This document shows positions 495 through 7,394 of a stretch of DNA of 64,000 bases, in pieces; the first letter of the stretch is position 1, and every line of letters begins with the position of its first letter. Made by a program: the position numbers and the translations under genes. The stretch is from Allacma fusca (Eukaryota; Arthropoda; Collembola; Symphypleona; Sminthuridae). Location: assembly GCA_947179485.1 (NCBI GenBank), contig OX359248.1, forward strand, positions 51,098,386 to 51,162,385, in the 5' to 3' direction. Under the pieces are notes generated by a model. The model was given only the letters and a program-made list of their open reading frames with translations, ran no database searches and was not told where the DNA came from.

Positions 495-1339
495 TTAATG
501 ATTCCAAGAAGTTAGACATAGTCGACAGGTAAGTTTTACATTATTTAGACCTAGGGAAAATTCCAGATAGTATGCTTATTAGTTTGACCACTATAATATT
601 GACCACTATAATAATAATAATAATAATATAAAATATTGACGTTATAAATTGTTTTTTTCCGAAACCTTAGAAAGAAGTCATTAGTAAACCAGGGGAAATG
701 ACCACCAAAAAACCAGGATGTTGAAAATGCTTGTGCGTGTGACATTAGCAAAACCCCAAAGTAACATGTTAATCAAAATTGTAATGACTTGACCAGTCAC
801 ACTATCATTTAGTAGAAGGAGGATACTAGAAAAATATAAACAACGAGCTCTTTCACGTGTGACCATGTACGCAAATTGTAAAATAAGCCCACGTTAGTAC
901 TTATAATTACTACAATAACATTAACGTCGTTGATTAACTTTTCGAACGTTCACAGTCCGAATTTTGAGTACATTTTGCAGGCCTCAGGTATAAACAAATC
1001 CGGCCTGAACCCTCTCGCAGTCCCAAATATAAATACGTATGTACATATGTGTAAGGTGAATACGACCCGCTACAACCCGTCGCGGTATTGTATTTATAAC
1101 TACTTACAAAATCTGAACTTTTGTCAATTCACTAACACTAAAAGTCACTAACAATAAATGACTTATTTTTTATACCAGATTCCATATTCGGGCTAACGCG
1201 TGATTAACTTCATTAAACAAGTTCAATTATATGCAAGCTTTCGACATCTAACAGACTGTCATCTTCAGGCAAAGACAAGTCTTTTTTTATTTTTTATTTT
1301 AAGCCCTTTGAATTACATAGTTTCTATTTTCTAAGTATT
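495..1339. other. non-coding, ATA-repeat and unassigned sequence
   Basis: Contains a short ATA-type simple repeat near 605-632. Short open frames here have no recognisable domains and no splice context. Confidence 0.5.
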
Positions 1340-1344
1340 TAGGG
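1340..1344. repeat. target-site duplication, left copy (TAGGG)
   Basis: Five bases TAGGG directly precede the TGTTGAG start of the left LTR. The same five bases directly follow the inverted LTR at 7390-7394. BEL/Pao elements usually make duplications of about 4-6 bp. Confidence 0.8.
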
Positions 1345-1840
1345 TGTTGAGTTAAGCATTCTCTATAGACGTAGGTTTATATGTACCTGTTTGGAAGTAC
1401 ATATTCTGTATGGAAGTGATGTAATGTTACATAAGGTTATGAGACCTTCCAGCGCGCCTCGGCAGATCCGTCTGCTTATGAATCATGTACATAGGTCGCG
1501 GAGGAAGAGTCAGTGTGGAGAATTACTTGAGAGAGCGAGCATCATCTTGTTACATAATCATAGCACTAGCAACCTTTGCATTAATCGAGTGCAAGCAATC
1601 ATTGTCATTTCCAGCAGTGCTTTATCAACTAAAATAAAGTGATAAAACTATTTGTGTTGTGTGCCCTGTACCCTTAATCATTGTAAGGCTACCTTAAGTC
1701 AGTGTCTCAGTACATACCGCTCCATGAGCCAAGTCATACACACACATACATATGCCCATGCCAATTCCATGTTCTTCATCATTAATTGCCGTCAATAATC
1801 CCGTTCATACTATCATCAATAGCAAACTACACAAGTAACA
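1345..1840 (+). repeat. left LTR (496 bp), forward orientation
   Basis: Starts TGTTGAG and ends AACA, consistent with TG...CA LTR ends. A polyadenylation signal AATAAA lies at 1633-1638, followed by a GT-rich stretch, so the R/U5 boundary is probably just downstream. The arm is repeated as an exact-length reverse complement at 6894-7389. The 83-residue open frame inside it is a by-product of LTR sequence and not a gene. Confidence 0.9.
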
Positions 1841-1845
1841 TTTTT

Positions 1846-1864
1846 TGGTCCTTCGAACCGGATT
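1846..1864 (+). other. primer binding site, tRNA-Tyr type
   Basis: TGGTCCTTCGAACCGGATT lies five bases after the LTR. Its reverse complement ends in TCGAAGGACCA. This matches the acceptor end of eukaryotic tRNA-Tyr, whose 5' end is CCTTCGA. The assignment to Tyr rests on remembered tRNA consensus and would need a tRNA search of the genome. Confidence 0.75.
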
Positions 1865-2212
1865 AATACCATCGCAATCCGAAGTTAGTGTTAATTTGTG
1901 TGAAACTTCAGCTATTTGTGAACGGAAAACTTAGCAGCCACGCTGCGGCAGACCGACGCTCGCTTGTAACGGTAACTGTAGTATGCCTGCACATGGTGGT
2001 ACATACTTACCACGCCGTTCCACTTCACGCTCACTCGTATGAACAGTAGCATAATCAATTTATAGACCAGGCTTCTACGGCCATTTTGTTTAGTGACGTG
2101 TACATTAGCCACGCTAACTTGTGCCGCCACCTTGACTTTGATTGTCCCTAATCATTTTTATTCTGACTCCGAAAGTGCTACTTACTCTTAACATTGACTG
2201 TTTTTATGAACC

Positions 2213-5200
2213 ATGCTTTCTCTAAAGAACAGCCGCTCAGGCTACAAATCAGTTGCAACGAAACTTAAACAGTCCCTGGAAGCTCAAGATCCCGATGTGC
2301 TTACTAGAAGTACATACTCCATGTTCATGCTAAAGCTCCAGGACATATCTAAAAAGCTGGAGGAAAATCACGCTCAGATTTTGGACTCTTGCTCCGATGA
2401 AGATGAAGCCAATGCTCATATCGCTGACTATGAAACTTCTTTGGATGCTCTTATGGAAATGTCGTTGATGCTATCATCGTGGGATGACTTCCTGACTAGG
2501 AAAGAAACCGCTGATTTTTTGCACCAACAACCTCAACCTAGGTCTCCTATTCATGGCCAAGTAAAGGTTAATTTACCTAAACTTGAACTTCCAAGATTTT
2601 CCGGTAAGCTGGAAGACTGGATTACCTTCGCAGACCTCTTCACTCACGTAGTTCATGCCAATACTGATCTGTCGGGTGCCCAAAAGTTACAGTACCTCAA
2701 GTCTGCACTTCAAGGGGATGCGGCAAGACTTCTTGATGCAATAACAATTGCGGATGGTAACTACGATACGGCTTGGAAAATTGTTACTGATCGATATCAG
2801 CACACCCGCGAAATTTTGCACACTCATGTCAACAAATTTCTACAGCAGCCACAAGTCCAGTCTGAATCTGCCTCATCTCTACTCAACATGATTGACGCTA
2901 CCAATCAGTCCTTGAATGCTCTGCGTGTACTTCACTGCAAGCCTGAGGATTGGAATGTGATTCTGGTAACTGTTCTGATGAACAAATTAGACTCAGAAAC
3001 TCGGCGGGTATACGAACGCAGCTTAGATCACAACGAAATGCCGTTGTTTGAAGACCTCATGAGGTTCCTGGAGAAGCAAGCACGAGCCTTAAATTCTGGA
3101 GCAGGGTTAAGGCCAAGACAAAATGGGAATCATAATAAAACCCAAGATGCTCGTCCAGCTCACAATCAGAGACTTCCAGTTACGAATGGCAAGGGAAAAT
3201 GTTCCTTTTGCAAGGACGACCACTTTTCCTTTCAATGCAAGCAATTGCTTGACAAGACAGGTCAAGACCGCTTCAAGTTTGCCCAGAGTTCAGGAGTTTG
3301 TCTCAATTGCCTTCGCAAAGGCCATGTTGCTGTACAGTGTGAGAGCACTAATTGTAAGCGTTGCAACAAACGTCACCACACTCTCCTTCATCGTGAAGAT
3401 ATCAAGACTGATGCAAAACAGGGTCCAGTATCAGCGTTCACAACCAAATCCTCGAGTGTCAGTAACGTACTGCTGGGCACAGCTGTAATTAGGGTCATGG
3501 ATAATGTTGGCAACCTTCACGACTGTCGAGCGTTACTAGACTCAGGGTCTCAAGCCAGCTTTGTTTCCACCTCATGTGCCAATAGACTTAATCTACCCAG
3601 AACTGAAGCACCAACAGAAGTTTCGGGACTGGCAGCAACTGGAGTTGCTTACGCAAGCCATTCCATTGTACTATGTGTGACATCCAGAGTCTATGCTGGA
3701 AGTCAGGTGAATTTTGATGCATTTATTGTTCCTAAAGTCACAAGCGATCTACCCATTAATCATGGCACTGCTGATGGATGGAGTCACACCCAGGGTTTAA
3801 AGCTAGCTGATCCGGAGTATTATCGGCCCCGCGGTATTGACATTTTAATTGGAGCCAACATCCTCAACAAGGTTATGAAACCAGCAATTATTCATGGCAA
3901 AGATGGAACTCCATCTGCCCAGGACACTCTCTTTGGTTGGGCTCTTTATGGCCCAGCATCAGTTCCTACAGCACCAAAGGTAGTATCGCTCATAAATGTG
4001 ACCCCTTTAAATGATATTGATGCTACTCTCAGGAAATTTTGGGAAATCGAGTCAATTGCAACCAAGAGGGTTTTTACTCCCGAGGAGGAACAATTTGTTG
4101 CTCATTTCAACCAAACTACAGTCCGCCTTGATGACGGCTCTTACCAGGTATCATTACCATTCAAGAATAAGGAAAAGGCTCTTGGCGAATCTAAACAGCA
4201 TGCACTAAGAAGGTTTTATCAGGTTGAGAACCGGCTCAACAGAAATCCTCATCTCAAGGAGCAGTATGTAAATTTTATGCATGAGTACATACAACTTGGG
4301 CATATGAGTCTAATTCCCCAATCGCAGTTGAACATAAATTCAGATAGTAGCTACTACCTACCACATCATCCTGTCCTAAAGGAATCAAGTTCAACTACAA
4401 AACTCCGTGTAGTATTTGATGCTAGTTCCAGCACTTCAACAAATGTGTCTCTCAATGATAAGCTTATGGTCGGTCCGATTGTCCAAAATGACCTATTTAC
4501 AATCTTGGTTCGCTGGCGGTACTACCTTGTGCCTCTCTGTGCAGACATCAAGATGATGTACAGAAATATATGGATACATGAAGATGACTGGACGTTTTTA
4601 AGGATTTTTTGGAGAGAAAAGGCTACTCTACCTATTCAGGAGTACTGGCTTAAGACGGTCACATATGGGACATCTGCAGCTCCTTCGCAAGCGGTTCTTG
4701 TTCTTCAAGACATCGCTGAAAGGTATAAGGTTTCTCACCCCTTAGCTAGCGAGGCACTTCAGCGTGACTTTTACATGGATGACTGTATGACTGGTGCCAA
4801 TACAGTTGAAGAAGCACTCGAATTGCAACAGCAATTACTGGCAGTGTTGAAGTTGTGTAATTTCACACTTAGGAAATGGTCTTCATCGGTTCCGGCCATA
4901 CTCGAAGCTGTACCTGAAGACTTTCGCGAAACTCAGCTTCCTCTTACTCTTGATCAAGGTGGTACAGTCAAGACACTTGGTATGCACTGGAGCCCATCAG
5001 CAGATGAGTTTCGCTTTACTTTTGATGCAGAAACGAGCAAGAGGAAGATTACGAAGCGTAACGTCCTGTCGGACCTTGCCCGCATTTTTGATCCATTGGG
5101 CTTAATGTCCCCAATTACAGTCAAAGGCAAGATTATTATGCAACATCTATGGAAACTAAAGATTGGCTGGGACCAGCAGCTACCATCTGACCTGTCTCGC

Positions 5201-6907
5201 CGCTGGTCTGAGTTTTGCAATGACCTCCTTTATCTTACAAATCTGAGGGTCCCACGCTGCATGGCAGCACAGATTGCTCAAAGTTACGAACTACATGGGT
5301 TCAGTGATGCGTCAGAGCAAGCCTATGCCGGAGTTGTTTACTTACGGACTATTTCAGATACTGGAGATATTTTCGTTCGTCTCATTGCGTCCAAGAGTAA
5401 GGTTGCTCCTTTAAGTCAGATTTCCTTACCTCGGCTTGAGCTCTGTGGAGCAGAATTATTGGCCAACCTCGTATCAGCCATTACCACCTCTCTGCCTATT
5501 CCCAACCTGAAGACATACGGATGGACTTATTCAACAATAGTTAAACACTGGCTAAGTGCACCGCCGCAGCGATGGAAAACGTACGTAGCTAATCGTGTGA
5601 CCAGTATCACCAACGTTATTCCGTCCAATTTATGGAACCATGTGAACGGAAACCTTAACCCAGCTGATCTACCCACCCGTGGGTTGTCAGCAGAGGAGTT
5701 ATGTTCATCCAGCCTCTGGTGGAATCCCCCATTTTTACTTCAACTCAATTTTCCAATTGACCAGCCTCCGGAGTCAAAGGCAGCTGCTGATGAAGCCCGT
5801 AAGGAAGAAAGACACACGGTAGTTTCGCATATGATAAAATTGAACGTCTCAATGGTTGATAAGTATTCAAATCTACTTCACCTTCAGCGTCATTCAGCTT
5901 GGCTGGCAAGGTTTTGCATGTTTTTAAATAAAAACAAAAATCAACCGATTCTTAAAGGTCCTTTAACTGTAATTGAGCTACAGAGAGTATTACACTCTTG
6001 GATTGTGGTCATACAACAGATGGAGTTTGCTGAGGAAGTCACTGCGCTGAAAAATAATGTTCCCATCCACCGGACTTCAAAATTACACTCTCTCAGTCCC
6101 AGGTTGGATGACGCTGGACTTCTCAGGGTGGGCGGAAGGATTGACAAGGCTCCGTTGTCATATAATGAGAAACACCCTATTCTCCTTCCCCGCCAAAGTA
6201 GACTCACTCGCCTCATCATAGAGCACACGCACCGTACTCTCAAACATGCAGGGTGTCAGCTCGTACTGTACTTTCTCCAGCAGAACTACTGGATCATCCG
6301 AGGAAAGCCACTGGTTCGTCAGTACATTAATAAATGTATTATATGCGTCCTACAGAAAGCTAAGCCTATGAACCAAGTCATGGGAAGCCTTCCGCAGCAT
6401 CGAGTTACACCAAGTCGTCCATTTAGCTACGTTGGCATTGACTATGCCGGCCCAGTCCTGCTTCGTACTTGGCAAGGAAGGAAAGCTGCGTCCTTTAAAG
6501 CCTACATAGCACTATTTGTGTGCTTCAGCACCAAGGCCATGCACTTGGAGTTGGTATCAGATATGACGTCTGAGACTTTCCTCGCTGCTCTTCGGAGATT
6601 CACATCCCGCCGTGGTCGCCCCGTCCACATCTACTCCGACTGTGGGACCAATTTTGTCGGAGCAAATAGAGAGCTTCAAGAGTATGTGAAGTTCCTTAGG
6701 ACAAAAGAGCACAATGAAATTGTGTCGAAGAAGCTCGTCAATGAAGGAATTCAGTGGTCGTTCAACCCACCCGGTGCGCCTCACATGGGAGGACTGTGGG
6801 AGGCTGGAGTTAAATCCGCCAAATTTCATCTCCGAAGATGCCTGGGAGAAACGCCACTGACCTTTGAGGAATCCGGTTCGAAGGACCAAAAAATGTTACT
6901 TGTGTAG
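2213..6907 (+). CDS. BEL/Pao gag-pol polyprotein, 3'-truncated
   Basis: A single open frame of 1564 codons. Order of parts: a Gag region with the FSGKLEDW motif (DUF1759-like, about residue 125); paired zinc-knuckle Cys/His clusters (about 330-400); an aspartic protease with LLDSGSQ (about 443); reverse transcriptase with YMDD at 854-857; RNase H with FSDAS near 1030; and integrase with an HHCC region (about 1337-1380) and DDE residues D1410, D1476 and E1530. The RNase H motif usually written W-S/T-D-S-T reads WTYST here (codon TAT at 5528-5530), so a catalytic Asp is replaced by Tyr. Residues after E1553 are not pol: the frame runs into the inverted primer binding site and LTR and stops at 6905-6907. 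The element's normal C-terminal domain is absent. This is reverse-transcription and integration machinery of a retrotransposon, probably inactive on its own. Confidence 0.92.
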   Translation: MLSLKNSRSGYKSVATKLKQSLEAQDPDVLTRSTYSMFMLKLQDISKKLEENHAQILDSCSDEDEANAHIADYETSLDALMEMSLMLSSWDDFLTRKETADFLHQQPQPRSPIHGQVKVNLPKLELPRFSGKLEDWITFADLFTHVVHANTDLSGAQKLQYLKSALQGDAARLLDAITIADGNYDTAWKIVTDRYQHTREILHTHVNKFLQQPQVQSESASSLLNMIDATNQSLNALRVLHCKPEDWNVILVTVLMNKLDSETRRVYERSLDHNEMPLFEDLMRFLEKQARALNSGAGLRPRQNGNHNKTQDARPAHNQRLPVTNGKGKCSFCKDDHFSFQCKQLLDKTGQDRFKFAQSSGVCLNCLRKGHVAVQCESTNCKRCNKRHHTLLHREDIKTDAKQGPVSAFTTKSSSVSNVLLGTAVIRVMDNVGNLHDCRALLDSGSQASFVSTSCANRLNLPRTEAPTEVSGLAATGVAYASHSIVLCVTSRVYAGSQVNFDAFIVPKVTSDLPINHGTADGWSHTQGLKLADPEYYRPRGIDILIGANILNKVMKPAIIHGKDGTPSAQDTLFGWALYGPASVPTAPKVVSLINVTPLNDIDATLRKFWEIESIATKRVFTPEEEQFVAHFNQTTVRLDDGSYQVSLPFKNKEKALGESKQHALRRFYQVENRLNRNPHLKEQYVNFMHEYIQLGHMSLIPQSQLNINSDSSYYLPHHPVLKESSSTTKLRVVFDASSSTSTNVSLNDKLMVGPIVQNDLFTILVRWRYYLVPLCADIKMMYRNIWIHEDDWTFLRIFWREKATLPIQEYWLKTVTYGTSAAPSQAVLVLQDIAERYKVSHPLASEALQRDFYMDDCMTGANTVEEALELQQQLLAVLKLCNFTLRKWSSSVPAILEAVPEDFRETQLPLTLDQGGTVKTLGMHWSPSADEFRFTFDAETSKRKITKRNVLSDLARIFDPLGLMSPITVKGKIIMQHLWKLKIGWDQQLPSDLSRRWSEFCNDLLYLTNLRVPRCMAAQIAQSYELHGFSDASEQAYAGVVYLRTISDTGDIFVRLIASKSKVAPLSQISLPRLELCGAELLANLVSAITTSLPIPNLKTYGWTYSTIVKHWLSAPPQRWKTYVANRVTSITNVIPSNLWNHVNGNLNPADLPTRGLSAEELCSSSLWWNPPFLLQLNFPIDQPPESKAAADEARKEERHTVVSHMIKLNVSMVDKYSNLLHLQRHSAWLARFCMFLNKNKNQPILKGPLTVIELQRVLHSWIVVIQQMEFAEEVTALKNNVPIHRTSKLHSLSPRLDDAGLLRVGGRIDKAPLSYNEKHPILLPRQSRLTRLIIEHTHRTLKHAGCQLVLYFLQQNYWIIRGKPLVRQYINKCIICVLQKAKPMNQVMGSLPQHRVTPSRPFSYVGIDYAGPVLLRTWQGRKAASFKAYIALFVCFSTKAMHLELVSDMTSETFLAALRRFTSRRGRPVHIYSDCGTNFVGANRELQEYVKFLRTKEHNEIVSKKLVNEGIQWSFNPPGAPHMGGLWEAGVKSAKFHLRRCLGETPLTFEESGSKDQKMLLV
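6870..6888 (-). other. inverted primer binding site at the rearrangement junction
   Basis: The 19 bases are the exact reverse complement of 1846-1864. The base before (G6869) no longer matches, so the inverted arm stops at the end of the primer binding site. Eighteen bases is the length normally copied from the primer tRNA before the modified A58 stops synthesis; the extra A at 6870 could belong to pol. Confidence 0.85.
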
Positions 6908-7389
6908 TTTGCTATTGATGATAGTATGAACGGGATTATTGACGGCAATTAATGATGAAGAACATGGAATTGGCATGGGCATATGTATGTGTGTGTATGA
7001 CTTGGCTCATGGAGCGGTATGTACTGAGACACTGACTTAAGGTAGCCTTACAATGATTAAGGGTACAGGGCACACAACACAAATAGTTTTATCACTTTAT
7101 TTTAGTTGATAAAGCACTGCTGGAAATGACAATGATTGCTTGCACTCGATTAATGCAAAGGTTGCTAGTGCTATGATTATGTAACAAGATGATGCTCGCT
7201 CTCTCAAGTAATTCTCCACACTGACTCTTCCTCCGCGACCTATGTACATGATTCATAAGCAGACGGATCTGCCGAGGCGCGCTGGAAGGTCTCATAACCT
7301 TATGTAACATTACATCACTTCCATACAGAATATGTACTTCCAAACAGGTACATATAAACCTACGTCTATAGAGAATGCTTAACTCAACA
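6894..7389 (-). repeat. right LTR (496 bp), inverted
   Basis: Reverse complement of the left LTR, with its TGTTGAG end pointing outward at 7389. In a normal element this LTR would be a direct repeat with its U5 end outward. Its AATAAA and promoter region therefore face the left LTR, so transcription from the two LTRs would converge. Confidence 0.9.
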
Positions 7390-7394
7390 TAGGG
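7390..7394. repeat. target-site duplication, right copy (TAGGG)
   Basis: Perfect copy of 1340-1344, directly outside the U3 terminus of the inverted LTR. Confidence 0.8.

Follow-up and report, generated by a model that had tools for sequence, protein, structure and literature searches.

How does a long terminal repeat (LTR) retrotransposon come to lie in a genome with U3 at both of its outer ends? The question is raised by an element found in a stretch of 64,000 nucleotides from the collembolan Allacma fusca, here called the window (positions 51098386-51162385 of contig C12, OX359248.1), which was compared with the whole assembly (392.7 Mb in 91 contigs). The element spans window positions 1345-7389, and its two arms (1345-1864 and 6870-7389), 520 nt each and 5005 nt apart, are inverted and 100% complementary, an identity that was checked as strings too. 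Read inward, each outer end starts with TGTTGAG, that is, with U3 on both sides; the TG/CA termini are intact, and TAGGG stands at 1340-1344 and again at 7390-7394 as a perfect 5-bp target duplication. By simple arithmetic, 5 flanking nucleotides would agree perfectly by chance in 1 of 1024 cases. The direct-orientation LTR pair of a standard insertion, with U3 at one outer end and U5 at the other, is not what this element carries. The sequence comparison confirms in full the inverted arms, the TGTTGAG ends and the TAGGG repeat that an earlier note on this DNA had described. The answer proposed here, with a probability of about 0.72, is that the right arm represents plus-strand strong-stop DNA (+sssDNA) with a tail copied from the primer tRNA, that it was joined to an incomplete cDNA, and that the resulting linear DNA with two U3 ends was then integrated.

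The element is assigned to BEL/Pao because of its Pfam matches, among which Peptidase_A17 (8.3e-53), DUF1759 (7.7e-37) and Integrase_H2C2 lie above the cut-off, while rve (integrase core) and RVT_1 (reverse transcriptase) are weaker and fall below the cut-offs. Pao-type domains and a 5-bp duplication are both present, and the element belongs to this family. One long open frame occupies the region between the arms: the gag-pol frame, on the plus strand, reaches from 2210 to the junction at 6870, with Pao peptidase A17, DUF1759, reverse transcriptase, H2C2 and integrase core, and continues open into the right arm, to 6907. Inverted LTRs are also a feature of DIRS elements, which have a tyrosine recombinase and make no target duplication. 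The window copy resembles them in its inverted terminal repeats but differs in having the integrase H2C2 match and the TAGGG duplication of 5 bp, and none of its eight Pfam matches is to a recombinase family.

The earlier note had equated the arms with the LTRs. That the arms are inverted and fully identical holds, but the LTR is shorter than the arm. Searched with the arm sequence, the assembly gave 38 matches. Where the close copies have a 3' or solo LTR, it matches the arm only up to position 496 or 497, for which reason the LTR proper is taken to measure 496 bp (1345-1840, plus strand, U3 outward, TGTTGAG...AACA). The full arm, positions 1-520, is matched at six places bearing a primer-binding site (PBS), the two of the window included. 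The 24 nt by which the arm exceeds the LTR consist of a TTTTT spacer (1841-1845), also present in eight control elements that were chosen for having it, the 18-nt PBS TGGTCCTTCGAACCGGAT (1846-1863, plus strand) and one T whose assignment at the junction is ambiguous. On the minus strand the right arm repeats this arrangement, with the PBS at 6871-6888, interpreted as the putative tRNA-copied tail of +sssDNA, the TTTTT spacer at 6889-6893 and the LTR of 496 bp at 6894-7389, U3 outward and identical to 1345-1840.

The 18 nt of the PBS pair perfectly with the final 18 nt of a tRNA-Tyr-like tRNA, CCA included. The tRNA-Tyr-like genes of the assembly end in AAATCCGGTTCGAAGGA, and their 3' ends read TTCAAATCCGGTTCGAAGGA, or the same with C replacing one T. 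We take the primer to be tRNA-Tyr, with the PBS pairing to its positions 59-76. The tRNA base beyond these 18 is A58, the position at which retroviral plus-strand copying halts, at a methylated A. The tRNA-Tyr genes, which contain introns, were identified by eye, ARAGORN having reported a tRNA-like gene, with its anticodon unresolved, in 1 of 20 loci. When the contexts of 13 of these 20 loci were viewed, five showed a tRNA-Tyr-like gene (three distinct ones, L025 and L026 showing one same gene and L027 and L028 likewise) and eight were PBS sites. With one position left free, exact tRNA-Tyr PBS 18-mers number 446 in the assembly. The LTR pairs of the eight control elements are 99.7-100% identical, which suggests that several young families may use the tRNA-Tyr PBS. 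On contig C12, at 48648832-48672512, eleven same-strand PBS 18-mers follow one another at an exact spacing of 2368 bases, a tandem array with PBS-like sequence.

What an ordinary copy looks like can be read from three close relatives with direct LTRs (L009, L010 and L011), which are flanked by the duplications ACATG, CCTTT and TGAAC, respectively, and in each of which the two LTRs are identical. They share with the window copy the LTR, the tRNA-Tyr PBS, the internal sequence, the 5-bp duplication and the TG...CA ends. The window copy is colinear with them from the 5' LTR into the integrase part of pol, up to 6870. Past this position it enters the end of the PBS directly and in inverted orientation, with one shared A, the PBS counting 18 nt, or 19 with this A. 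Where all three relatives read ...CTTTGAGGAGTACGC, the window copy has ...CTTTGAGGA / ATCCGGTTCGAAGGACCA, a junction placed at 6870-6871 by the alignment of the relatives, with an overlap of 1 nt (the A at 6870). In L010, 571 nt lie between the junction point and the 3' LTR; a match to this piece was sought in the window and none was found, and the 3' LTR is missing from its normal position. The lost piece must, as judged from its position, hold the remainder of pol and the polypurine tract; correspondingly, no polypurine tract beside a 3' LTR is found in the window copy, the 571-nt region where it must lie being unmatched there. Unlike its three relatives, therefore, the window copy has inverted LTRs, an outer U3 twice, and neither the last 571 internal nt nor the 3' LTR. 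Among the four relatives compared, L009 (C9:11163991-11170008) is the nearest, with 7 differences in 4951 positions and identical LTRs; 573 nt are missing from its internal region, at another place than the loss in the window copy.

Normal structure is the rule in the other copies as well. The eight controls (L039-L046), which have the same PBS and spacer, were taken from 26 PBS-plus-spacer sites that include the two of the window, L009 and L010; in all eight the LTRs are direct and the 5-bp duplication is perfect. Of the other copies that were read at both ends, 14 of 14 show U3/U5 ends together with a 5-bp duplication, namely 11 two-LTR copies (L009-L011 and L039-L046) and three solo LTRs (L013-L015); L012, whose match stops within the element, and L016, a distant relative matching the LTR in direct orientation, its duplication unchecked, were left out of this count. 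Among the 26 sites, the window provides the sole pair in (-,+) orientation within 10 kb.

What the sequence shows directly is how the element is built, that its inner junction lies at the PBS end, that its 3' part is gone, that its target site is duplicated and that its relatives are normal. The right arm is limited by the U3 terminus on one side and by the end of the 18-nt PBS on the other (with one ambiguous nt), and both are natural ends of +sssDNA. A random break in a leader of several hundred bases would hit this base or its neighbour about twice in 500, a figure that is an estimate and was not computed. The right arm is regarded as probable captured +sssDNA because its ends fit this molecule, while inversion, autointegration and a random break do not account for them. 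That integration proceeded through two U3 ends has good support, from the U3 at both ends, the intact TG/CA and the perfect 5-bp duplication; the duplication of TAGGG indicates that integrase handled the U3-U3 DNA as a normal substrate. The insertion of a palindromic cDNA by its two U3 ends, which the earlier note had considered the simplest reading, is on the whole partly supported.

The steps that could lead to such a product have counterparts in better known elements. In Ty1 and Ty3 the polypurine tract is reported to prime repeatedly and the first +sssDNA, whose tail of 12 nt is copied from the tRNA, to be displaced; in Ty3 particles this dead-end +sssDNA builds up to high levels (PMC5371799). 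For human immunodeficiency virus type 1 (HIV-1), transfer of +sssDNA between two packaged genomes is proposed (PMC9278108), and HIV-1 integrase together with LEDGF is described as binding, in vitro, a pair of identical U5 ends (PMC3623958). In the window copy, +sssDNA composed of U3-R-U5, the spacer and 18 nt copied from the primer tRNA-Tyr would have been displaced with its tail, escaping normal use. Its 3' end would then have been joined to an incomplete cDNA, or to genomic RNA, within the integrase part of pol. We infer that the arm is +sssDNA, as also the order and the enzyme of this joining step, for which two routes can be envisaged: a second plus strand might reach the end of its template in pol and jump to the 3' end of +sssDNA, or the 3' end of +sssDNA might prime on a plus-sense template at the pol site. 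Such reverse-transcription routes to a linear duplex would need more than one +sssDNA. Fill-in would give a linear duplex with U3 at both ends, which integrase would insert through them with the usual 5-bp duplication.

Several points weigh against this proposal. A PBS copied from the tRNA and one copied from the element cannot be told apart by sequence, since both read alike here. The reported Ty tail measures 12 nt, against 18-19 nt here (PMC5371799). Priming would be favoured if the 3' end of +sssDNA paired well with the pol site, but such complementarity is weak and varies with the length scored: of 5581 sites, those pairing equally well or better number 57 (10 nt), 346 (8 nt) and 1067 (18 nt) for an 18-nt tail, and 21 (11 nt), 72 (8 nt) and 710 (18 nt) for a 19-nt tail. 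Because of this weakness and dependence on length, partial pairing was dropped as support for priming. The earlier note had also proposed looking for the empty site and for further copies with inverted LTRs, and both searches were run. No empty site, with the host flanks joined over one TAGGG, was found in the 40 candidates scored of 385, and no second U3-U3 element was found among 282 of the 446 PBS sites, which leaves a single event; moreover, the locus is known from the assembly alone.

The second of these searches screened for (-,+) pairs of PBS 18-mers 1-15 kb apart. Its 282 sites comprise 234 of the 247 that have T at the variable position and 48 of the 199 that do not, these 48 lying without exception on contig C1. 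A pair with a member among the remaining 164 sites would therefore be missed; the screen covers the exact tRNA-Tyr PBS only. It returned three pairs, one of them the window. The pair C5:54303650/54316199 was rejected as a second case, since the sequences around its two sites do not match each other. The pair C8:14344316/14348402 was likewise rejected, being part of a large inverted duplication whose arms extend inward past the PBS and far outward. This duplication (L038:351-9586) has arms of about 3.8 kb, with 100% identical stretches of 2384 and 1439 nt, around 1.6 kb, and a PBS in each arm.

A PBS variant with an extra T occurs at three places (L011, L012 and L053), no tRNA gene being among them, and is common to two separate copies of the family of the window element, L011 and L012. 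The variant hints that the family may be Ty-like, its inherited PBS not being a copy of the tRNA; alternatively, repeated slippage in the T run may have produced it.

Among the rival explanations, joining by the host survives best, although it is unlikely. A duplex with the shape of +sssDNA would have been ligated to a broken or incomplete cDNA in pol by end joining, and the product integrated thereafter. The +sssDNA would be that of the preferred reading, with another enzyme forming the junction. A short overlap without longer homology is typical of end joining, and the junction has an overlap of 1 nt without longer homology; on the other hand, this route requires a duplex that stops exactly where the PBS ends, as well as a cDNA end in pol. 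Between a template jump and end joining, nothing in the sequence favours either.

Rearrangement of a normal insertion, by inversion, gene conversion or a trimmed second element inserted nearby in reverse, is very unlikely. Large inverted duplications with 100% identical stretches do occur in the assembly, as the C8 locus demonstrates; its arms, however, continue beyond the PBS on the inner side and for a long way on the outer side, which those of the window element do not. Inversion cannot make an LTR followed by a PBS, because a 3' LTR has the polypurine tract on its inner side and host DNA on its outer side, and an inverted 3' LTR cannot gain a PBS. Furthermore, the outer 5-bp repeat is consistent with a single insertion, and the inner end coincides with the end of the PBS. 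A later inversion had already been judged improbable in the earlier note; the case is stronger than argued there, since the right arm bears a PBS, which 3' LTRs lack. A nested insertion was considered as well and down-weighted together with rearrangement, in view of the PBS on the right arm and the single outer duplication.

A misassembly or a chimeric read is just as improbable. Exact inverted repeats can mislead assemblers, and the locus is documented by the assembly alone, but a matching TAGGG at both outer ends is hard to obtain by assembly error, and the inner break falls at a biologically special base. The full left and full right flank pieces match only the window locus among the 40 candidates scored; the other 38 match just the distal 102 nt of the left flank (window 1200-1301), which is a repeat. 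A fold-back is excluded because the left and right flanks differ. The element therefore adjoins, on its left side, another repeat at 1200-1301.

Finally, autointegration, in which an LTR end would attack the element's own pol prior to insertion, is exceedingly improbable, given that autointegration products, which can be inverted, are joined by integrase at the LTR terminus, whereas in the window copy TTTTT and the PBS intervene between LTR and pol. The process as such is documented for retroelement cDNA (PMC2644782).

Integration of captured +sssDNA, the reading preferred here, can be set beside two known systems. The dead-end +sssDNA reported for Ty1 and Ty3 is alike in its composition (U3-R-U5 and a tRNA-copied tail) and in being freed in the particle; it differs in being a linear by-product with a 12-nt tail, whereas the window copy shows the end of a genomic insertion with a tail of 18-19 nt (PMC5371799). 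HIV-1 proviruses with asymmetric LTRs are, like the window copy, integrated products of irregular reverse transcription, attributed to +sssDNA passing between the two packaged genomes; unlike it, they have an intact 5' LTR and a deleted 3' LTR, and proviruses with inversions are also reported there (PMC9278108). No published description of LTR retrotransposons with U3 at both ends was found, in a search outside which most subscription journals lay.

To our knowledge, plus-strand transfer in BEL/Pao elements has been little studied. It is conceivable, though at present only a tentative suggestion, that reverse transcription in BEL/Pao elements regularly yields tRNA-tailed +sssDNA as a by-product, through Ty-like recycling of the polypurine tract, and that its capture gives rise to a recurrent class of U3-U3 insertions with the junction at the end of the PBS. 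The LTR-PBS unit in inverted pairs, with its inner end at the PBS end, provides a signature by which other genomes can be screened. The window element indicates that two U3 ends can serve an integrase in vivo and give a normal target duplication; if the proposed origin of its right arm is true, the element would preserve in a genome the trace of a reverse-transcription intermediate reported from particles.

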